Source: Bradyrhizobium guangzhouense (lineage in GTDB: Bacteria > Pseudomonadota > Alphaproteobacteria > Rhizobiales > Xanthobacteraceae). Taken from it: DNA of 64,000 nucleotides. The notes beneath the pieces are model-generated. The model saw only the letters and a program-made list of their open reading frames with translations. It was not told the origin of the DNA and did not search any database. The stretch is taken from NCBI RefSeq assembly GCF_004114955.1, contig NZ_CP030053.1, positions 1,364,001-1,428,000 on the forward strand, given 5' to 3'. This document shows, piece after piece, positions 46,077 through 56,623 of the stretch; positions within the stretch are counted from its first letter, which is position 1, and each line of letters opens with the position of its first letter. Position numbers and translations under genes: made by a program.

Positions 46077-46365
46077 GCCGCCTCGTCTTGTTCTTGGGTG
46101 TATTGGCCGAGCGGGCGGCATTGGACCACGGCGGTCATAACTTCCCGTAAATCGGCGACGGCCTTGCCACGCGCCCGCGCAATTTAACCGATTGTTTTCA
46201 AATTCGGTTTACCATCGGCCAATACATGCAAACCGTTCCCTGTTTACGCAGTCGAATTAACTGCGGCGCAAGTCTTTGCGCTTACGTTGAGTTCCATGGT
46301 CGGGCGGCGCTGGGAAGCCGAAGAGACCAGACCATTGAAGCCTCGTGTACCTTTTGGAGCAGTCT

Positions 46366-46530
46366 ATGAAGAACCTCGTTTCGCGTTTCGTGAAGGACGA
46401 ATCCGGCGCCACCGCCATCGAATACGGCCTGATCGCCGCCGGCATCGCGCTGGCGATCATCACCGTGGTCAACAACCTCGGCTCGACGCTGAACACCAAG
46501 TTCGGCTCGATCTCGTCCAGCCTCAAGTAA
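46366..46530 (+). CDS. Flp/Fap-type IVb pilin
   Basis: A 54-residue prepilin. A charged leader (MKNLVSRFVKDESG) is followed by ATAIEYGLIAAGIALAIITV, with the Glu five residues after the likely prepilin peptidase cleavage at Gly14. It should form the thin Flp/Tad pilus used for surface attachment. GGAG lies six bases before the ATG and a strong terminator follows. No tad/cpa assembly genes are in the window, so it depends on a locus elsewhere. Upstream, TTAA-N7-TTTT at 46184-46198 is only a near-match to a CtrA site. Confidence 0.93.
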   Translation: MKNLVSRFVKDESGATAIEYGLIAAGIALAIITVVNNLGSTLNTKFGSISSSLK

Positions 46531-46865: not shown

Positions 46866-47852
46866 TTATTCCGCGAGACTCGGCTGCCACACCACCGCCG
46901 GTGCAGCCGCCGCTGCCGAAACCCGCGCCGTGCGGCTCATCCATTCCAGATAGGCCTTCGCGGCAAAGATCGAGCCTGCCGCCAGCGCAATACCGCCAGC
47001 GACATCGACGATGTAATGCGCGCCGATGACGGGCGTTGCGGCGATCATCATGAGGTTGAGCGCCGCCGCGATGCCGCCGATGCGCCGCACCGGCCACAGG
47101 GCCCACATGTAGAGCACCGCGGACGCGGCGTGGAAGCTCGGGAACGAGACGATGCCGGAGAGCTTGAACAGTTGCAGCTCGTGCAGGCTGCCGTCGCGCA
47201 GGGCCAGGATATCGCGCAACTGTCCGGCGTAGACGGCGGTGTTGATGTCGGGGACCTGGGCGGCCGGCAATTGCAGTCCGTAATAGGTGCCGATCGCCGG
47301 CACGAGTGCCGAGACCGCGATGGTGACGGCAAGCGCAAGGCTCATCGCCAGCATGAACAATTGCAGCCGCACGTAACGCGCCGTCAGCGTCAGCACGACG
47401 GGGGTGAAGAGCAGGGGCCATTTGATCAGGCCGTAGCTGCGCGACAGGACGTCCGCGAGCCAGGGGTGATCGTTGACGAAGCGCGCGATCGGCTCGGGAT
47501 CGAGGCCGAGCGCGCGATCGACCGCGAGCAGCGCCTGGTCCTGCAGCGGCCAGCCCATCCTGCCGGCGACGTAGCTCAGAGGCCCGACGATGGCGCAGGT
47601 GATGATCACCTGGCCGATCGTGCCAAGCGAGAAGATCAGTTTCGGATCGGCGCAATCGCCTTTGGCGATGCGGTGGCGGTAGGCGATGACGACGAAGAAC
47701 GCGGCGATTGCCAGCGTAATGCCGTAGGCGACCGGCTCGAGCCTGAGGCCGGTGACATCAAGGCCGAGCGCCAGCAGGCTGCCCATGATCGCGATGGGAA
47801 GCCAGTTCAATTGGTAAAGCCGCCAGGCGGTTTTGGCGTCCGTGTCGACCAT
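46866..47852 (-). CDS. PAP2 superfamily membrane phosphatase/phosphotransferase
   Basis: A 328-residue protein with about six to eight hydrophobic segments. The PAP2 active-site segments are visible: SFPSFHAASAVLYMWAL (His motif) and GAHYIVDVAGG (His and Asp). The pattern is closer to the inositol-phosphorylceramide-synthase-like PAP2_3 group than to simple phosphatidate phosphatases. It would act on a lipid phosphate at the membrane. The start MVDTDAKTAW at 47852 is chosen; 55 more in-frame codons upstream have no family similarity. It is divergent from a TetR gene. Confidence 0.88.
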   Translation of the reverse strand: MVDTDAKTAWRLYQLNWLPIAIMGSLLALGLDVTGLRLEPVAYGITLAIAAFFVVIAYRHRIAKGDCADPKLIFSLGTIGQVIITCAIVGPLSYVAGRMGWPLQDQALLAVDRALGLDPEPIARFVNDHPWLADVLSRSYGLIKWPLLFTPVVLTLTARYVRLQLFMLAMSLALAVTIAVSALVPAIGTYYGLQLPAAQVPDINTAVYAGQLRDILALRDGSLHELQLFKLSGIVSFPSFHAASAVLYMWALWPVRRIGGIAAALNLMMIAATPVIGAHYIVDVAGGIALAAGSIFAAKAYLEWMSRTARVSAAAAAPAVVWQPSLAE

Positions 47853-48022
47853 GCTGCACCGAGTTGGATCGCAGCCACCGTGGCCGCTCCGCTTTAAGAC
47901 CGCGGTAAGAAGTGTGGTCAGCCGTTTACCAATGGATTCCCTGCAATTTGAATGGTTTGCAGTGCAGCGACGCAAGTGACCTCCAGGAGCGGCACATGCG
48001 TATTTGCTTCTTGTCATCCTCC

Positions 48023-48038
48023 CTGAATAGTTGTTCAG
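48023..48038. promoter_or_regulatory. Weak palindrome upstream of the tetR gene at 48125
   Basis: CTGAATAGTTGTTCAG has 5-bp perfect arms and lies 87 bases upstream of the TetR start in the divergent gap with the PAP2 gene. A plausible repressor site, but short. Confidence 0.25.
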
Positions 48039-48124
48039 TCCTTGCGGGGCGATTTGCAGCGAATTCAGTGACGAAGCGTTCGGCCGCGGGCGTGCGGCAG
48101 GCGTGGTGGGACAGGAAGCGCGCC

Positions 48125-48811
48125 ATGGTTTATCGGCGGACGCATCAAGTGGTTAAGCGCCTTGCGGCTCGGCGCAGCGCCATCCTGGCGGCGGCAAGGG
48201 AAGCCGCAGCCGAAGGCGGCATGGCGGCGGTGCAGATTGCGCCGGTTGCGGTCAGGGCCAATGTGGCGGCCGGCACGGTCTACCGCTACTTCCCCTCCAA
48301 GGCCGAGCTGATTTCCGAGCTGATCTCCGAAGTCTCCCGTGACGAGCTCGCGGCCATCAGGCGCGCGGCCGATGCCGCGCCGGGACCGTCCTCGGCGTTG
48401 GCGGCGGCCGTGACCACGGTGGCGGTCCATACCCTGTCGCAGCGGCGGCTCGCCTGGGGCATCCTGGCCGAGCCCGTCGATGTCGATGTCAGCGCCTCCA
48501 GGCTGGCCAGCCGCCGCGAGATCGCGGGTGAGATCGCCGCGCGGATCGACGCTGCGGTGCGCGCGGGCCATCTGCCGGCGCAGGACACGGCGCTCGCCGC
48601 CACCGCGCTGCTGGGCGCGCTGCATGAGGCCCTGGTCGGCCCGCTCGCGCCCGACAATCTCGAAGATCCCGTCAAGATGCGCGACGCCGTCCAGACCGTG
48701 ACGCTGCTGGCGCTGCGCGCCGTCGGCGTCATGGACGCCCGCGCGCGAGGTCTGGTGGTGCAGCAGACGTTGCTGCCGACGACCAAGGCGCTGGTCGGGG
48801 CTGCGGGCTGA
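48125..48811 (+). CDS. TetR/AcrR family transcriptional regulator
   Basis: A 228-residue regulator. The helix-turn-helix is IAPVAVRANVAAGTVYRYFP (about residues 38-60), after an Arg/Lys-rich N-terminus. The ligand domain ends PTTKALVGAAG. AGGAAG lies before ATG 48125. It is divergent from the PAP2 gene and convergent with the TOMM operon (20 bases from the dehydrogenase stop). It could regulate the PAP2 gene; a link with the TOMM operon is possible but not supported by an operator I can see there. Confidence 0.92.
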   Translation: MVYRRTHQVVKRLAARRSAILAAAREAAAEGGMAAVQIAPVAVRANVAAGTVYRYFPSKAELISELISEVSRDELAAIRRAADAAPGPSSALAAAVTTVAVHTLSQRRLAWGILAEPVDVDVSASRLASRREIAGEIAARIDAAVRAGHLPAQDTALAATALLGALHEALVGPLAPDNLEDPVKMRDAVQTVTLLALRAVGVMDARARGLVVQQTLLPTTKALVGAAG

Positions 48812-48831
48812 GTTGATCGATCGGACATGCT

Positions 48832-50304
48832 CTAGCCCGGGATCGGCCGTTGCGCGCTACGTCCCAGCGCGAACTGACCGACCGGTCCCTCGACGTGGAG
48901 TTCGAGCCCCGTCATTCTTGCGAACAGGTCAATGTTGCTGGTGCCGATCGCGCAGCCGCCAAGGCTCATGTCGGCCGCCGTCAGGTAGAACGTCTGGATC
49001 ATGCAGCCGACATCCTTCAGGACCAGCGAATATGCAATCGAGCTGTATTTCCAGGCGATCCGCCCGAAACGCGCGGCGATCGTGATCAGGATCTGCGGTG
49101 GCCCCGATGCGTCCATGGCAAACTCGGCCGTCGCGAGAAGCGCCCGGATCTGCTCGGGAGAGGCATCGAGCGAGACAAGCGCGTGGCGGCCCGCATCGTA
49201 GTGGTAAAATCCGCGGGCCAGACCCTCGCAGTTGGAGACCGCCAGATACAGCTCCAGCTCATACGCGCTGCCGGCCGCAGGATACGGCCGCGAGGTGTAG
49301 GTGACCTCGCCGCCTCCGCCGACATCGTCGCCGCTCTTCCATTCCGACAACACGCGGGCGGTCGTGCCGAGAAACTGCGCGAGCTCGGGAAGCGTGACGG
49401 GATTCCGGTCGTCGAAATCCCGCGTCGAATGGCGGGCGTGCAGCAGCCTGGTGAACGGCGATGCTGGCGCGGCCGAGACGAATTTGTCGAGGGAGACCGA
49501 CTTGCCGGTCCAGGACGGGCGCAATGCGGGCAGCGAGGGAACGGCGGCAGCATAGGCGTACGCGCCGCCAACCGGTTCGGAATGCCGGCCCTCCGTGCTG
49601 CGCGTGTGAAAAACGAGATCGTGGAAATCCCACAGAACGAGATTGCCGTCGCCTTCGTTTACTCGAAGTCCGTCTCCGTGTTTCGGATCGAGCTTGATCA
49701 ACATCCCGCCGTCGAGCAGCAATCCGAGCAACTCGATGTCCAGCGCTGCCGCCCGCCTGCGAAGGTTGCTGATCTTCTGAGGCCGTGACAGGCTCGCGAG
49801 CGTGGCGGCGATGGCGGGATCACCAATCCGGAACAGCGCGCCGGCGCGGGGCGATTCCAGCACCATCTCGTTGCCGCGCCGGCGCAGATAGGCGAAGCGC
49901 GACAAGACGAGGATATCGCCGTTCGACAGTTTTGCAGGCTCCGGCCAATATTCCGCGACCTGTGGCTCGATGACGACCATGTCTTGCGCGTCACGGGGCG
50001 AGAACAGCCGATAGTCGAGCAGCCCGTGCCATGCCAGCCGTCGCACCAGGACATGCACCTGCCTCGCGACGATACTTCGGCCGGCAAGGGAGGCAAGCGG
50101 CAAGCCGGTGGCGAGCGGGCCCGCGCGCTCGATCGCCGCGCGGCTGTATTGTCCGAGGTTGAGCGAATGATCGCCGGACACGGCGGCAACGCTTCCGTCG
50201 GCCTGCATGTGCAGGGAGAAACGGCCGTTCAGCCGGGCGGTGATGACGGATGCGACGTTCCTGGCCAACTTTTTCCGGGAGGTGCGCACGGAAATAGCCT
50301 TCAA
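48832..50304 (-). CDS. SagB-type FMN dehydrogenase of the TOMM (azole/azoline peptide) locus
   Basis: A 490-residue protein. The C-terminal half (about 260-490) is the SagB/ThcOx nitroreductase-like domain: LLHARHSTRDFDDRNPVTLP, RPYPAAGSAYELELYLAVSN, GFYHYDAGRHALVSLD, LKDVGCMIQTFYLTAADMSL and FALGR. It would oxidise azolines to azoles using FMN on a modified precursor peptide. The N-terminal 230 residues have no clear family and could bind the leader. Its ATG overlaps the cyclodehydratase stop by four bases (ATGA). It is the last gene of the minus-strand operon. Confidence 0.9.
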   Translation of the reverse strand: MKAISVRTSRKKLARNVASVITARLNGRFSLHMQADGSVAAVSGDHSLNLGQYSRAAIERAGPLATGLPLASLAGRSIVARQVHVLVRRLAWHGLLDYRLFSPRDAQDMVVIEPQVAEYWPEPAKLSNGDILVLSRFAYLRRRGNEMVLESPRAGALFRIGDPAIAATLASLSRPQKISNLRRRAAALDIELLGLLLDGGMLIKLDPKHGDGLRVNEGDGNLVLWDFHDLVFHTRSTEGRHSEPVGGAYAYAAAVPSLPALRPSWTGKSVSLDKFVSAAPASPFTRLLHARHSTRDFDDRNPVTLPELAQFLGTTARVLSEWKSGDDVGGGGEVTYTSRPYPAAGSAYELELYLAVSNCEGLARGFYHYDAGRHALVSLDASPEQIRALLATAEFAMDASGPPQILITIAARFGRIAWKYSSIAYSLVLKDVGCMIQTFYLTAADMSLGGCAIGTSNIDLFARMTGLELHVEGPVGQFALGRSAQRPIPG

Positions 50305-52541
50305 GTGTGCGGCAGGAACGGGGTCAGTTCGCTTTCCAGGCGCGGGCGATCCAGCAGTCCTAGCTTCACGGGCACATCGTAAAGCCGGCCGGGCCCGAAG
50401 CGACGATAGAAATGCCGCAAGCCAGGGACGAGCACCCTGACGACGGGGACCTCGACGTCGGGCCGCGTCTGGTCGAGCACGAGGAAATCGTATCCGGCGC
50501 GGACCGCGATCTCGACGCAGGCATTGACCTGGTCACGCGTATTGTCGTGAAGCTGGATGTCGGGCGCCGGTGGGACAATCGGGTTGTCGCTGGGAATCAA
50601 GAACGGATAATCGTCCAGCCGCAGCGGCGTGACACCGTCGAGCGATGGCTTCTCGCCGCTCCCGCCGCCCATCAAGCCGATCGACATGAACTGGGTGAGC
50701 TCGGTGAGCGAACGCAGCAGGGCGATGCGGCGATCGAAATGCGAACCGGACCCGAACTCGATGTTCTCGTGTCCATTTTGCATCCAGTGCATGATCGCAA
50801 CATAGGAGGGAATGCCGAGATCGCTGGTGATGTCGAGGACCCAGAGCCGGCGTCCCGCGTCGGCGAACTGGCGCTGCAGATCCCGTACGTAGGAATCCTC
50901 GAATTGCGCCAGATCGACTTCCGCACGCTGCACCCGGTTGTACCACCAGATCGCATAGGCATCGCGTTCGACCAGTTCGAGGAAGCCTTGAACGATGGCT
51001 TCCTCGCGTGTGTTGCCGGCCGCGCAACCGTTCGAATCCGTGTGGAAGCCGCCGTAGAAGAAATACAACAGGCCGGTCGGGAGATATTTGAATCGCTTGT
51101 CGCGCAGTGACCAGACCGGCGACCATTCGGTTTTCATCGCGGGATCGAAGGGCTCGGGAACCGGATGTGAATCGTCAGGCAGCGGGATATGCCTGTTTTG
51201 GAATTGCAGGTCGCTGAAGAACTGGACGTCGTTGGGCAGAAGTGCGTCACCGGGAGCGAAATCGGCGAAGCGTCGCGTCGTCCTGATCTCGTCACCCTGG
51301 AAAATGCCGGAATAGCGTTCGATCGCCTCCATCAGCGCGCTGGCCTCGCCCTGTTCGGCCGTGGAGCCCTTGCCGAAGCTGCCGCCGCTCAGGCCGGACC
51401 TGAGCTGGTCGACATTCCACGCCGGCGCAGAGAAATTGTGGTAGGCGAAAAAATTGGTGTTCATCGGCAGGTCCGCTTCGATCCGCTCGAGCCTGGACAC
51501 CACGCCGGTCAGTGGACTGACATGTTTGCGGTATCGCGCCACGGTGGCCCGCGACGTCACGGTGCGGTATCCGCCGCTGGTCATGACGAGACGTTTGCCT
51601 TCGGCAATCTCGATCGGCACGGCCGCCCGCCGCGGATTCCTCAGCTTCTTGCTGCCGCAGGTCGCGCATTGCGGACGTTTCGCAACGTAATGCTTGGCGA
51701 TGGCGGCCCCGGTGAGGTCGACGCTTGCGATGTGATCGCTGAGGTCAGTGCGAAATCCTGATGCAATCGCCTTCGCAATCTCAGTGGCAGCGAAGTGGAC
51801 CGCGGTCTGTCCCACACTGTCGCTGACCAGGGGCGATGTTGCGACCGCTTGCGCCGCCCCGCGATGGAGAAATCCCTTGATCTCGCGATTGCGGATCATG
51901 CGATCGTGCAGGCAGGTCCAGCAGGCGCTTTCGCCCGGCTTGAACACCGGGCCCACCAACGGAAAAACCCCGGAGGGCTGGACCAGCAGCCAAGGCGTTC
52001 CGTCGGCCACGCGGTCCCCGTTCAATTCGGCGAGCGCGGGTTCGAGGTAATCGTTCACGAGCGTGACGATGAGTTTTGGCGACCGCTTGGTGATTTGAAC
52101 TCCGAGCTTGGCGAGCGCCGCGCTCAGCTCGCCGGCGCCCTTGACGTCGATCGATTCCACCCGAACCGGCCAGTTGCGCAGGTTCTCTTCGGCGATTTCG
52201 GCAGGCAGGCCGAGGCTTGCCCAATATCCATCAATGGGGCTCGCCTGCGATGCTCCGCTGACAACGTAGCGGCGCTCCAGCAGACGCCGGATCGCTTCCT
52301 CGATCTCGGCCACGGGAAAGTGTTTCGAGAGCTGGCGGATGATGTCCCGGGCCGCGCGGCCATTCTTTCCGATCGCGGCCGCCACTGCGCAATAGAGCTC
52401 TCCGTGCAGGAAGAATTTGCGGTTCTCCGAATAGAGGCAGACCACATTGGGAGGAAGCAGATAGGCGGTGAAGTTCGGCGCGAAACGCAAAATGCTCTTG
52501 CGGATCGGCCTTGCGGTGCGGCGCTTTCGCTTTGATGTCAT
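50301..52541 (-). CDS. Fused leader-binding / YcaO cyclodehydratase (TOMM synthase)
   Basis: A 746-residue enzyme. The first 350 residues are the ThiF/E1-like leader-recognition part, with two zinc Cys pairs (CWTC near 210, CATC near 295). The rest is YcaO, with ATP/Mg motifs GKGSTAEQGEASALMEAIER and AAGNTREEAIVQGFLELVER. The combination installs thiazoline/oxazoline rings on Cys and Ser/Thr of a precursor by backbone phosphorylation. The C-terminus ends TPFLPHT rather than the classical PxPxP. It lies 249 bases after the precursor gene, beyond a terminator-like hairpin. Confidence 0.93.
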   Translation of the reverse strand: MTSKRKRRTARPIRKSILRFAPNFTAYLLPPNVVCLYSENRKFFLHGELYCAVAAAIGKNGRAARDIIRQLSKHFPVAEIEEAIRRLLERRYVVSGASQASPIDGYWASLGLPAEIAEENLRNWPVRVESIDVKGAGELSAALAKLGVQITKRSPKLIVTLVNDYLEPALAELNGDRVADGTPWLLVQPSGVFPLVGPVFKPGESACWTCLHDRMIRNREIKGFLHRGAAQAVATSPLVSDSVGQTAVHFAATEIAKAIASGFRTDLSDHIASVDLTGAAIAKHYVAKRPQCATCGSKKLRNPRRAAVPIEIAEGKRLVMTSGGYRTVTSRATVARYRKHVSPLTGVVSRLERIEADLPMNTNFFAYHNFSAPAWNVDQLRSGLSGGSFGKGSTAEQGEASALMEAIERYSGIFQGDEIRTTRRFADFAPGDALLPNDVQFFSDLQFQNRHIPLPDDSHPVPEPFDPAMKTEWSPVWSLRDKRFKYLPTGLLYFFYGGFHTDSNGCAAGNTREEAIVQGFLELVERDAYAIWWYNRVQRAEVDLAQFEDSYVRDLQRQFADAGRRLWVLDITSDLGIPSYVAIMHWMQNGHENIEFGSGSHFDRRIALLRSLTELTQFMSIGLMGGGSGEKPSLDGVTPLRLDDYPFLIPSDNPIVPPAPDIQLHDNTRDQVNACVEIAVRAGYDFLVLDQTRPDVEVPVVRVLVPGLRHFYRRFGPGRLYDVPVKLGLLDRPRLESELTPFLPHT

Positions 52542-52716
52542 CGGGGTCGCACGCTGATCCTGTTTGCGCCATGTTCGATCGTTGGCTTACGATGAACGCC
52601 TTGCCGGCCCGACCTTTCGTCGAGCACCACCGGATTTCTTGATATGAGTTGGAACACACTCGTTCGCCATCGGCAAGCCGAGCAGGAGAGCGAGGCGAAC
52701 GCGGTGGCCGCGACAG

Positions 52717-52749
52717 AAAATTGACCGGGTCGTGTGCGAGCCCGGCCAA
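52717..52749 (-). terminator. Terminator/attenuator between the TOMM precursor and enzyme genes
   Basis: On the minus strand TTGGCCGGG (52749-52741) and CCCGGTCAA (52729-52721) form a 9-bp stem with one G-U pair and an 11-base loop, then TTTTC. It lies 42 bases after the precursor stop. Partial termination here would make far more precursor mRNA than enzyme mRNA. Confidence 0.6.
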
Positions 52750-52790
52750 TGAAATTGCATCATGTCGATGTTGATTCAGATGCTTCTAGC

Positions 52791-53258
52791 CTAGCACCAG
52801 CGGCAGCGTCCCCATGATGCGCAGCACCCCGTGCAGGCTACTGGCACCGGCAACGGCAGCGGCAAGCCGATCCAGCCAACGCCACAGCCGCCACAGCCAC
52901 CGCAACCGACGCCGCAGCGACAGGCTCGACAACCTGCGCAACCTCTGCAGCCGCCACACCCTCTGCAGCCTCCGCAGCCGTGACAACCACCGCATCCTCG
53001 CGCCAGCAGCACCTGGCTCAATTCTTTCTTGTCGTAGGCAAGATGAAAGGTGGCGAGGCTGACGTCCGCGAGCTCTTCCTCGCTGAGCGCCGTATACCGA
53101 CCGGAATTGGAGTTCGGTCTTTGTTGGATCTCGTCGGTCTGCAACGCGGACGCTGCCGCGCTTCCAGCCAGTGAAAACGTCAGCCCGGCGAGGCCTAGCG
53201 CCGGTATCGCGGTTTTGGTTTTTCGGTTCTTTTTCGAAGCTTGTCTCGTCCGCCGCAT
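52791..53258 (-). CDS. TOMM/RiPP precursor peptide with Gly/Cys-rich core
   Basis: A 155-residue precursor. Residues 1-37 look like a Sec signal: a basic start (KKNRKTKT), a hydrophobic run (AIPALGLAGLTFSLAG) and ASA. Residues 38-87 are a leader with the acidic/hydrophobic block ALSEEELADVSLATFHLAYD. The core has Cys at 89, 92, 95, 98, 101, 104, 107, 110, 113, 115, 119, 122 and 125, then a Pro/Leu run (LPLPLPVPV) and Cys 142, 145, 146, 152 and 155 beside Trp and Arg. This resembles microcin B17 in composition. GGAGG precedes ATG 53258; a TTG 15 bases earlier is rejected. It is upstream of the modifying enzymes on the same strand. Confidence 0.88.
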   Translation of the reverse strand: MRRTRQASKKNRKTKTAIPALGLAGLTFSLAGSAAASALQTDEIQQRPNSNSGRYTALSEEELADVSLATFHLAYDKKELSQVLLARGCGGCHGCGGCRGCGGCRGCAGCRACRCGVGCGGCGGCGVGWIGLPLPLPVPVACTGCCASWGRCRWC

Positions 53259-53341
53259 GGCCGCATCCTCCAAGGCTTCAAGAAGGCTTCAGGTCCGATC
53301 GCCGTGCAGTGATCCTACGCCGGGCAAAAAGGGCGGGCAAG

Positions 53342-53380
53342 ATTCGCACGTACACAAAAGAGTAAGAGCCTATTCGCACG
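53342..53380. promoter_or_regulatory. Direct repeat upstream of the TOMM precursor gene
   Basis: ATTCGCACG occurs at 53342-53350 and 53372-53380, in direct orientation and 30 bp apart (about three turns). It lies 84-122 bases upstream of the precursor ATG and could bind an activator. It is also 104 bases or more from the VOC gene start. Confidence 0.35.
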
Positions 53381-53483
53381 CATTCATCTTCATGAACGAC
53401 ATCGCGGCAATTTCTTGTCGATATCGATGGACGGCCGTGATGCGGTGCGCAATCGTCAGGGAAGCTCAACCGGAGAGGCGAGC

Positions 53484-54353
53484 GTGGCCGAACAATTTGG
53501 ACGCTTCGTTTGGTACGAGCTTCTGACGACGGACGTGCCGTCGGCCGCAGCTTTTTACGCCGAGATTGTCGGCTGGGCCGTGAAGGATGCCTCGAGCCCG
53601 GAACTTGCCTACACGCTGCTGACGGCGGGGGCAGCTCCGGTCGTCGGGCTCATGGATCTCCCCGAGGAGGGAGTGCGGATGGGGGCCACGCCGAGATGGC
53701 TCGGCTATGTCGGCGTCGATGACATGGTTGCGACGGTCGCGCAGGTCCTCCGACTGGGAGGCGCCATCCTGGTATCGCCGACCGACAGCAATATCGGCCG
53801 CATTTCGGTGGTCGCCGATCCGCAAGGAGCGACGTTTGCGTTGGTCACCCGGCTGGCCTTTGGCCCGGCGCAAACGAGCGGGTCGTATCAGCCCGGACGC
53901 GTGGGCTGGCACGAGTTGCTGGCTGAACACCGAGGCGAGGTCTTTCCATTTTATGGCAAGCTTCTCGGCTGGCGACAGTCCTCAGCCGAAGTGGATCCGG
54001 CCAGCGTGTATGATTTGTTTTCGGTGGCCGGGAAGACGATCGGCGGCATGCTCACCAAGCTCCCGAGCGTATCGCACGCCTCTTGGCTTCATTACTTCAA
54101 TGTCGAGGACGTCGGCGCCGCGGCCCGGCGGGTCAACACCGGCGGGGGCCGCGTCCTTCACCAGCCGATCGAGTTGCCCGATGGCGGCTGGATCGTGCGA
54201 TGTGTCGACCCTCAAGGCGCCCTCTTTGCACTCCAGGGCGCCTGGGATCACAAGGGCGGCGAAAAATCCTCCAGCCCGGAACTCAGCTGGTCCTCCGAAT
54301 GGGGCGGCATTGCTTCGCGGGGCAGGATGGTGATCCACAAGACCAGGCGTTAA
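53484..54353 (+). CDS. VOC family protein with two tandem glyoxalase-like domains
   Basis: A 289-residue protein. The first VOC domain begins FGRFVWYELLTTDVPSAAAF and the second GRVGWHELLAEHRGEVFPFY, each ending in a D-PQG-F-L type strand (DPQGATFALV, DPQGALFALQ). Such proteins are often annotated as glyoxalase or hydroxylase-like. GGAGAGG lies five bases before GTG 53484, so that start is preferred over upstream TTG or ATG codons. It is divergent from the TOMM precursor. Function unknown. Confidence 0.88.
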   Translation: MAEQFGRFVWYELLTTDVPSAAAFYAEIVGWAVKDASSPELAYTLLTAGAAPVVGLMDLPEEGVRMGATPRWLGYVGVDDMVATVAQVLRLGGAILVSPTDSNIGRISVVADPQGATFALVTRLAFGPAQTSGSYQPGRVGWHELLAEHRGEVFPFYGKLLGWRQSSAEVDPASVYDLFSVAGKTIGGMLTKLPSVSHASWLHYFNVEDVGAAARRVNTGGGRVLHQPIELPDGGWIVRCVDPQGALFALQGAWDHKGGEKSSSPELSWSSEWGGIASRGRMVIHKTRR

Positions 54354-54419
54354 ACGCGGCCAACCGGCTACTGTGCATGGGGTTGTTTTCGCGTTTTGGT
54401 CGGCGGCCGGCCGGCCGCC

Positions 54420-55856
54420 TCAGATGTTCGCGTCGCCCTCAGGGCCGACGGAGGCAATGCGCACCATGTTGGTGGTGCCGGGAATGCCGAGCGGCACGCC
54501 GGCGACGATGATGACGCGCTGGCCGGCGCGGACGAAACCGTCGCGGAAAGCGATCTGGCCGGCGCGGTTCACCATGTCGTCCTGGTCGCGCGCATCTTCC
54601 GCCACCACGCAATGCACGCCCCAGACCACCGCGAGCCGGCGTCCGGCCGTGATATTCGGCGTGATCGCCACGATCGGCGGCTTCGGCCGCTCGCGCGCCA
54701 CGCGCACGGCGGTCGAGCCGGAACTGGTCCAGCAGATCAGGGCAGGCAGGTCGAGCGTCTCGGCGATCTGCCGGGCGGCGTCCGCGATGGCGTCGCCGGC
54801 GGTGGATTCCGGCGCGGGCCGCTGGGCCATGATCACGTCTCGATAGATCGGGTCGCGCTCGACCTCCTCGCCGATGCGGTTCATGGTCGAAACAGCCTCG
54901 ACCGGGAATTTGCCGGCCGCCGATTCCGCCGACAGCATGATGGCGTCGGCGCCCTCATAGACGGCGGTGGCGACGTCGGAGACTTCGGCGCGGGTCGGCA
55001 CCGGCGACTGGATCATCGATTCCAGCATCTGGGTCGCGACCACCACCGGCTTGCCGGCGCGGCGCGCCATGCGCGTCATCTGCTTCTGCAGGCTCGGCAC
55101 GCGCTCCAGCGGCAGCTCGACGCCGAGGTCGCCGCGCGCCACCATCAGCGCGTCGGAGGCCTCGATGATGTCGGCGAGGCGGTCGATCGCCTGCGGCTTC
55201 TCGATCTTGGCCATCACGGCGGCGCGGCCGCGGATCATTTTCTTGGCTTCGATCACGTCGTCGGCGCGCTGCACGAAGGACAGCGCGATCCAGTCGACGC
55301 CGGTGACCAGCGCAGCCTCGAGGTCGGCGCGGTCCTTCGGCGTCATCGCCGAGACCGGCAGGTCGGTGTCCGGAAGGCTGACGCCCTTGCGGTCACTCAT
55401 CTTGCCGCCGACCACGACCCGCGTCACCGCGTGCTCCTTGGTGGTTTCCTCCGCGATCAGCCGCACCTTGCCGTCGTCGAGCAGCAGCGCGTGGCCGGGC
55501 CGCAGGGCTGCCAGAATCTCCGGATGGGGAAGGTTGACGCGGGTGGCGTCACCAGGCGTCTTGTCGGAATCGAGCGTGAAGGTCTGGCCGTTCTGGAGCT
55601 GCACCGCGCCTTCGGCGAACGCGCCGAGCCGGAGCTTGGGGCCCTGGAGATCGACCAGGATGCCGATCGGGCGGCCGTAGCTGCTTTCGACATTGCGGAT
55701 CGTCGCCACCAGCTCCCGCATCTTGTCGTGCGGGGTGTGGCTCATGTTGATGCGGAACACGTCGGCGCCGGCCTCGAACAGGCGGCGGATCATCGCGAGG
55801 TCCGAGGAGGCAGGTCCAAGGGTCGCGAGAATCTTGATACGGCGAAGACGCCTCAT
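54420..55856 (-). CDS. pyk: Pyruvate kinase
   Basis: A 478-residue enzyme that converts phosphoenolpyruvate and ADP to pyruvate and ATP. Motifs: KILATLGPASSD at the start, FRINMSHT, DLQGPKLRLG, the active-site MAKIEKPQAIDRLADII, ARGDLGVELPLERVP and MLESMI. The C-terminal domain is complete. The ATG overlaps the stop of the upstream DUF1036 gene by four bases. A GGCGGCCGGCCGGCCGCC palindrome follows the gene but has no T-run. Length is typical. Confidence 0.97.
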   Translation of the reverse strand: MRRLRRIKILATLGPASSDLAMIRRLFEAGADVFRINMSHTPHDKMRELVATIRNVESSYGRPIGILVDLQGPKLRLGAFAEGAVQLQNGQTFTLDSDKTPGDATRVNLPHPEILAALRPGHALLLDDGKVRLIAEETTKEHAVTRVVVGGKMSDRKGVSLPDTDLPVSAMTPKDRADLEAALVTGVDWIALSFVQRADDVIEAKKMIRGRAAVMAKIEKPQAIDRLADIIEASDALMVARGDLGVELPLERVPSLQKQMTRMARRAGKPVVVATQMLESMIQSPVPTRAEVSDVATAVYEGADAIMLSAESAAGKFPVEAVSTMNRIGEEVERDPIYRDVIMAQRPAPESTAGDAIADAARQIAETLDLPALICWTSSGSTAVRVARERPKPPIVAITPNITAGRRLAVVWGVHCVVAEDARDQDDMVNRAGQIAFRDGFVRAGQRVIIVAGVPLGIPGTTNMVRIASVGPEGDANI

Positions 55857-56455
55857 GGCTTATTTCCAGACGGTGGTGGCGAGGAAGCTGGCGGGAGGCC
55901 AGGTGCGGCGGGGGGCGTACCACCGGGCGGACTATTGGGCAAACCCGGAACGCCGCCACCAGGCCCAACAGGGCCGGGCATGCCGGGGACACGCGGTTGC
56001 GCGGAAGGCTGCTCATTGGCGTCGGTGAGCTGCACCGTCCAGGCCCGCTGCTCGCCGGTGTCGACCTCGAAATAGCCGGTCCGGTCATAGCCGCGCGCCA
56101 GGCAGTCTTCGGTGCCGCGGATGGTGAACTCCTTGTCGCGCGAGCACATGAAGGCCTGCCCCGACCATTCGCCGCCGCGGTCGTAGTCGATCGCGTAGAT
56201 GTAATAATAGCGGGCGATCAGCGTTCCCCGTAGCAGGGTCTCGCAGGAGCGGGACGAGATGTTCCACCAGCCTTCGGTGGTCCAGCCGTCGGCGTCCTTG
56301 TAGCCGAGCGCGATGCCGACCCGGCTTGAGGTGTTGTTGCAGAGCCGGAAATCGGCCGAGGCTGGGCTGGCCCAGAAGCAAAACAGGCCAACCGCGAGCA
56401 CCGGGACCAACCGGGCGAGCAGGCGAAGGGGGGAGCGGGGAGATTCGGCGATCAT
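55853..56455 (-). CDS. DUF1036 secreted protein
   Basis: A 200-residue protein. A signal or membrane segment (LARLVPVLAVGLFCFWASPA, residues about 12-32) precedes the DUF1036 domain: DFRLCNNTSSRVGIALGYKD, GWTTEGWWNISSRSCETLL, YYYIYAIDYDRGGEWSG. The last 50 residues are Pro/Gly-rich. It is usually found next to pyk in this group and here overlaps the pyk ATG (ATGA), so the two are co-translated. The function is unknown; some relatives are periplasmic. The ATG at 56455 gives a clean signal region. Confidence 0.88.
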   Translation of the reverse strand: MIAESPRSPLRLLARLVPVLAVGLFCFWASPASADFRLCNNTSSRVGIALGYKDADGWTTEGWWNISSRSCETLLRGTLIARYYYIYAIDYDRGGEWSGQAFMCSRDKEFTIRGTEDCLARGYDRTGYFEVDTGEQRAWTVQLTDANEQPSAQPRVPGMPGPVGPGGGVPGLPNSPPGGTPPAAPGLPPASSPPPSGNKP

Positions 56456-56623
56456 TGTCGCGGAACGTATACCAGATGATTGACGATTTGGCGTAGGGCC
56501 GGGGAACTGCCCATTGATCGGCCCAGCGGCCGTTTGCGCCGCGATATGGCAAAATCTGTGACACGACCCCACCTGATCCCGTAAGGGTGACTACCATCAA
56601 GGGCGCAGCCGAGGATTCCTGCC

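Follow-up and report, generated by a model that had tools for sequence, protein, structure and literature searches.

A conserved cassette for a probable azole peptide, with a Gly/Cys-rich precursor and a linked VOC gene, in Bradyrhizobium guangzhouense

Genes and enzymes of the locus

We analysed a candidate locus for an azole-containing peptide in the genome of Bradyrhizobium guangzhouense (assembly GCF_004114955.1), located in a 64,000-nucleotide stretch of contig NZ_CP030053.1 (positions 1,364,001 to 1,428,000), hereafter the window. The original prediction, made from the sequence of this DNA, had placed three genes on the minus strand, and all three are there: a Gly/Cys-rich precursor is followed by a fused leader-binding/YcaO cyclodehydratase and then by a SagB-type dehydrogenase. 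Its assignment as a locus for a thiazole/oxazole-modified microcin (TOMM) or linear azol(in)e-containing peptide (LAP) is borne out: the leader is conserved, the enzyme families are intact and relatives keep the gene neighbourhood. The locus is real and conserved, an azole-peptide cassette whose kind is already known and whose anatomy is new. Four elements go beyond the original prediction: a linked gene for a vicinal oxygen chelate (VOC) protein, extra precursors distant from the enzymes, and the hydrophobic N-terminus and conserved C-terminal motif of the precursor. The features are listed in Table 1.

The fused enzyme scored 298.6 bits against the YcaO model PF02624 (cut-off 25.7) and 156.2 bits against the TOMM leader-binding domain TIGR03882 (cut-off 36.9), and the dehydrogenase, an optional member of TOMM loci, scored 175.6 bits against TIGR03605 (cut-off 78.4) and 112.1 bits against the ThcOx model PF22767 (cut-off 27.7). 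The closest solved structures to the fused enzyme are those of the cyanobactin heterocyclases LynD and TruD, and of MusD; LynD matched over residues 17–741 with an E-value of 1e-142. As judged from sequence, the enzymes are of cyanobactin type, since the fused enzyme is LynD/TruD-like and the dehydrogenase matches ThcOx. The fused enzyme, 96% identical to its Bradyrhizobium zhengyangense counterpart, has the two CxxC pairs as well as charged stretches, GKG...E..ER and N..AAGNT.EEAI...ELVERD, which we take to be zinc- and ATP-binding in such enzymes. These pairs and stretches are largely invariant across 51 aligned enzymes, the window's included (left out were sequences shorter than 85% length and L083, which has an internal stop).

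Some further YcaO genes were seen in passing. The locus recorded as L083/L109 (G352) has an internal stop in its YcaO gene and seemingly open reading frames for the precursor, SagB and VOC; it is perhaps decaying. A Bradyrhizobium-type locus with a 91% identical enzyme (L037) stands under the record Frankia sp. RB7, probably a mislabelled or contaminated assembly. Two genomes of the window's genus (L111 and L112 in G061 and G094) carry a 38–39% identical YcaO enzyme beside a PatG-like subtilase (PatG_C, PatG_D), as cyanobactin-like clusters, and in L113 (G082:C3) a second YcaO enzyme, with 35% identity, precedes a Peptidase_S41-domain protein.

Table 1. Features of the locus, with positions in the window
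Feature	Position	Strand	Remarks
Precursor, 155 aa	52794..53258	minus	ATG at 53258, stop 52793–52791
Precursor residues 1–38: basic start, Gly/Ala/Leu-rich hydrophobic segment, AxA-type site	53145..53258	minus	signal-peptide-like; putative role
Precursor residues 58–73, LSEEELADVSLATFHL: conserved leader motif	53040..53087	minus	probable docking site for the leader-binding domain
Precursor residues 89–125: Gly/Cys repeat core, 13 Cys	52884..52994	minus	
Precursor residues 142–155, CTGCCASWGRCRWC: conserved C-terminal motif, 5 Cys	52794..52835	minus	strict CC..WG.CR.C
Fused leader-binding/YcaO cyclodehydratase, 746 aa	50301..52541	minus	LynD/TruD-like over residues 17–741; positions include the stop
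SagB/ThcOx-type flavin mononucleotide (FMN) dehydrogenase, up to 490 aa	48832..50304	minus	start uncertain; the YcaO stop adjoins the TTG at 50304; positions include the stop
Tandem-domain VOC protein, Rv0577/AbxF-like	53484..54353	plus	divergent from precursor; GTG start picked from homologue length (~289 aa)
Sigma-70-like promoter TTGCCC-N17-TAGGAT	53312..53340	minus	54 nt before precursor ATG; found by eye

The precursor family

The precursor contains 18 Cys residues, nine of them in steps of three from 89, 92 and onwards to 113 and the others at 115, 119, 122, 125, 142, 145, 146, 152 and 155, in exact agreement with the predicted count and spacing. Gly immediately precedes 12 of the 18. 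The calculated mass of the whole precursor is 15878.6 Da unmodified and would be 15518.1 Da with 18 thiazoles. When residues 87–125 were shuffled 200,000 times, a step-of-three run of at least nine Cys arose in 11 shuffles.

A protein search returned 3910 relatives at an E-value of 0.001 or below, a total that the low-complexity core may inflate. The query and the 120 best of these 3910, some of which look truncated or frameshifted by eye, formed a set of 121 proteins, and 19 diverse members were aligned. The alignment revealed a four-part plan: a basic and hydrophobic start, a leader motif, a Gly/Cys core of variable length and, often, a C-terminal motif. Leader residues E62, D65, V66, L68 and F71 are invariant in all 19 rows, and the motif pattern occurs in 111 of the 121 proteins, so the leader that was to be sought in relatives is indeed there. 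The acidic leader element presumably resembles recognition sequence I of cyanobactins; a leader fragment searched against solved structures gave no match. No cyanobactin precursor model appeared among the NCBIfam matches of the precursor (E-value up to 10) or of the 19 members (E-value up to 1).

At the other end, the predicted Cys/Trp/Arg tail is conserved, with the strict CC..WG.CR.C closing 106 of the 121 proteins; the Pro/Leu run described before it has no counterpart in most of the relatives listed. In the 19-row alignment, L089, L092 and the rows of Methylocystis type do not have the C-terminal motif. Methylocystis-type relatives lack the tail but still have the hydrophobic segment, Cys-Arg-Gly repeats and a leader related to that of the window; in L073–L075 and L108, the core is a pure repeat of Cys-Arg-Gly/Cys-Gly-Gly type. 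A carbamoyltransferase and an amidase flank precursor, YcaO and SagB in both Methylocystis-type loci examined (L073 and L108). A simple pattern of a hydrophobic stretch followed by AxA was found in 100 of the 121 proteins, and a pattern search for a twin-arginine translocation (Tat)-type motif found it in none.

The precursor frame is under purifying selection. Its ratio of non-synonymous to synonymous substitution rates (dN/dS) was 0.06–0.28 in eight comparisons, two of which used only 73 codons; the same comparisons gave 0.08–0.12 for the fused enzyme, 0.25–0.30 for the dehydrogenase and 0.20–0.33 for the VOC protein, with some precursor and VOC comparisons spanning part of the gene. About six of the eight are independent, because two pairs have near-identical figures and probably come from the same genomes. 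Upstream, with duplicates and too-short regions left out, a loose sigma-70-like pattern precedes 35 of 47 locus-type precursors versus 1 of 20 distant ones. An EcfG stress promoter was rejected as a rule: a regular expression found it in 2 of 67 upstream regions, both belonging to distant precursors.

Distribution, distant precursors and the VOC gene

Across 146 genomes sampled from the genus, the precursor (E-value 1e-8), the YcaO enzyme (1e-60) and the VOC protein (1e-40) share an identical set of 60, to which the window's genome belongs. Among the remaining 86, precursor and VOC were found in none, and two have a distant YcaO enzyme only. The surroundings of precursor, YcaO and SagB are conserved in relatives, as had been suggested for checking, while the flanks change: they fall into 15 clusters beyond the VOC gene (42 loci) and 21 beyond sagB (41 loci), counting flanks of at least 1 kb at loci where precursor, SagB and VOC are all present. 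Because the VOC gene co-occurs with precursor and YcaO enzyme in identical genomes amid differing flanks, it belongs to the unit, which thus exceeds the three genes originally proposed. Sequence evidence makes the VOC protein a constant partner of the pathway. Its fold is that of a tandem VOC protein; the structure prediction had a mean predicted local distance difference test score of 36.2 from the single sequence, which is useless, and of 79.5 with 28 aligned sequences.

In 18 of the 60 genomes we counted, by hand, 39 further precursor places, up to six in one genome (G053). These lie on another contig or at least ~20 kb from the enzyme locus, and many of the genomes are drafts. Around the 20 distant precursors that were fetched (5–7 kb each), no YcaO or SagB match was detected at an E-value of 1e-4. 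Their leaders are similar and their cores different: in two near-identical copies from one genome (L089 and L090), little remains of the Cys core and the C-terminus is a Pro/basic tail, and L092, L093 and L097 lack the usual tail. Since further precursor genes lie away from the enzymes in these 18 genomes, one enzyme set probably serves several precursors. Conserved flanks of the distant precursors were considered and rejected, as stretches of at least 150 nt outside the precursor region were common to only two pairs among the 20.

Beyond the genus, a class-wide search with the precursor alignment recovered the window's genome alone among 385; scoring was limited to 10 candidates per genome, which may have hidden distant relatives. 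An order-wide YcaO search found six of 249 genomes, three of them from the window's genus; in one of the six (G280, 39% identical YcaO), 12 kb contained no reading frame with the Cys richness looked for. Plasmid carriage was rejected, since a tblastn search of 72,556 plasmid records gave no match, and so was anti-phage defence, no model having matched precursor, VOC or YcaO enzyme at an E-value of 0.001.

Eight proteins of the locus and its flanks were scanned (window 46869–56572, where some reading frames fall outside the scan). Besides the precursor and its enzymes, they comprise the VOC protein, a TetR protein, a PAP2 protein, a pyruvate kinase and a DUF1036 protein. Further away, at 46345–46530 on the plus strand, a 61-residue reading frame has the look, by eye, of a Flp/Fap-type pilin.

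Proposed working and its alternatives

We consider it probable that the locus makes a linear polyazole peptide of the TOMM/LAP kind, and from its genes we infer the following course. The precursor would dock through LSEEELADVSLATFHL onto the N-terminal leader-binding domain of the cyanobactin-type fused cyclodehydratase. Using ATP, this enzyme would close many core Cys residues, preferably those after Gly, to thiazolines in the cytoplasm, and the SagB/ThcOx FMN dehydrogenase would oxidise these to thiazoles. The same enzymes would probably also mature the precursors that related species encode at distant sites. The precursor's hydrophobic N-terminal stretch, which has an AxA site, may send the product over the inner membrane by the general export route; it is the best export candidate because no transporter or protease is among the neighbours scanned. 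The ligand of VOC bleomycin-binding proteins carries a bithiazole; by analogy with them, the VOC protein would most likely bind the azole peptide in the producer, as an immunity protein. No bleomycin-resistance protein is among the 50 matches listed for it, which says nothing against such a role. The product would act on neighbouring bacteria, the most likely activity given the patchy presence, variable cores and changing positions of the genes; metal binding is the main rival. A fuller version, in which a family of Sec-exported polythiazoles forms a variable set from scattered genes, with one enzyme set per genome and the tandem VOC protein as immunity binder, appears unlikely; to our knowledge, neither a Sec-exported member nor a VOC immunity protein is known for the azole class of ribosomally synthesised and post-translationally modified peptides (RiPPs).

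Several points weigh against the polyazole pathway as set out here. The polyazole is deduced from the genes, no product having been seen. The fused enzyme reached 215.6 bits against TIGR03604, about 4 below the cut-off of 219.25, and the co-occurrence across 146 genomes covers precursor, YcaO enzyme and VOC, with SagB outside that search. That no exporter or protease was seen applies to the neighbours scanned, a non-exhaustive set in relatives. The signal-peptide reading of the precursor's N-terminus is itself weak: hydrophobicity of the segment is moderate, with a Kyte-Doolittle mean of 1.49 in its best 19-residue stretch, and L21, G25, S29 and G32 are conserved in it beyond ordinary signal-peptide need, so it may instead be an enzyme-binding helix. 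As for the VOC gene, VOC proteins have many functions, no match (E-value up to 1e-5) was found at the Methylocystis-type loci L073–L075, and among the 20 distant precursors only L086 has a close VOC match, that of L105 being weak and partial.

The Methylocystis-type loci also lend something to the view that the VOC gene travels with the cassette as a bystander, with no role in the pathway, as do the lack of a VOC match at the same threshold in the 5.2 kb of L082 and the fact that VOC genes are common. We nevertheless think this improbable, because the 60-genome distribution is identical while flanks change, because L081 and L109, relatives at a greater distance, carry the gene at the opposite side, behind sagB, and because a second copy stands beside a distant precursor in one genome (L086). 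If the VOC protein is a partner, it could tailor the peptide or regulate the pathway rather than confer immunity. This is less likely than binding in the producer, though a sizeable possibility; it leans on fold and remote sequence similarity, the score falls far short of the KbpA cut-off, and we know of no relative of the protein that acts on a peptide.

The system differs in part from each of its known counterparts. It shares with cyanobactin pathways (LynD, TruD, MusD and a ThcOx-type oxidase) the fused cyclodehydratase and the ThcOx domain, but no PatA/PatG-like subtilisin protease is among the eight proteins scanned, the core is a Cys-Gly repeat instead of short cassettes, and the locus has a long signal-like precursor N-terminus and a VOC partner. 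Microcin B17, to which the product was originally likened, also has a Gly-rich core with many azoles expected. Its gene set comprises separate B, C and D enzymes plus export and immunity genes, whereas the window encodes C and D as one fused enzyme, LynD, TruD and MusD are its nearest relatives of solved structure, and the proteins scanned include no exporter or pentapeptide immunity protein; the comparison is not supported.

A heterocycloanthracin/sonorensin system, as UniRef names one homologue (P0007), would account for the Cys-Xaa-Xaa repeats of the core, and precursors of that group also lie away from their enzymes (Haft 2009, PMC2674419). The core does match the group's model TIGR03601, at 20.5 bits, but this is below the cut-off of 35, spans residues 86–128, the repeat core, and leaves the leader unmatched; across the 19 aligned members, any match (E-value up to 1) occurred in eight, the best at 0.00054. 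According to Cox 2015 (PMC4603692), heterocycloanthracin cyclodehydratases lack ~100 N-terminal residues and need a separate F protein, whereas the leader-binding region here is within the enzyme itself, its N-terminal region aligning with that of LynD. A match to the F protein (TIGR03693) was absent from the window's genome, and 14 control genomes were equally silent. With the TIGR03601 cut-off missed and the enzyme's N-terminus untruncated, we reject membership in this group as very improbable.

The product could instead be a periplasmic or secreted metal-binding peptide, with azoles made by YcaO and SagB and a working like that of bufferins. As described (PMC12452194), bufferins are RiPPs modified by multinuclear non-heme iron-dependent oxidative (MNIO) enzymes, with a Cys-rich precursor and a possible Sec signal peptide, whose use by RiPP precursors the authors call "highly unusual". 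The signal-peptide-like N-terminus, the very high Cys content, a conserved five-Cys tail that may stay free and the relatives in Methylocystis would all suit such a function. We hold it to be doubtful all the same: azole formation should use up many of the Cys residues, the promoter looks housekeeping-like (no metal-box search was made), and the eight proteins scanned include no metal transporter or metal-responsive gene. Bufferin enzymes are of a wholly different class, with no MNIO or DUF2063 match among those proteins.

Scattered precursors as such have a precedent in prochlorosins, lanthipeptides of other chemistry, where one enzyme set serves several scattered precursors sharing a leader; Cox 2015 (PMC4603692) names prochlorosins as precursors located elsewhere, and the string "rhizob" is absent from its main text. 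The original statement that no product with this core has been described fits our literature searches and needs one amendment: according to Haft 2009 (PMC2674419), Lee et al. 2008 proposed a B. japonicum precursor with Cys-Arg-Gly repeats. Being alike in genus and repeat type, it is probably a member of the same family. That text does not discuss the anatomy, the VOC link, multiple precursors or the tail motif, and the TfuA-linked Bradyrhizobium clusters (PMC8120280) differ from the locus. In the Bradyrhizobium literature, mostly judged by titles and abstract openings, we recognised no account of the precursor family, the VOC partner or the scattered copies.

Overall, the enzymes are of a known type, and the anatomy, with precursor copies scattered through the genome and a constant, glyoxalase-like VOC partner, is new. 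With two enzymes, one partner and many natural precursors, the cassette offers a compact system for asking how one LynD-like enzyme handles cores that differ widely in length and in the pattern of their Cys residues. It also allows one to ask if the general export route is open to azole peptides, and what part a VOC protein plays next to a polyazole. Bradyrhizobium is a major genus of soil bacteria and legume symbionts, and the cassette is present in 60 of the 146 genomes sampled; if its product is antibacterial, it would bear on rhizobial competition in soil and nodules.
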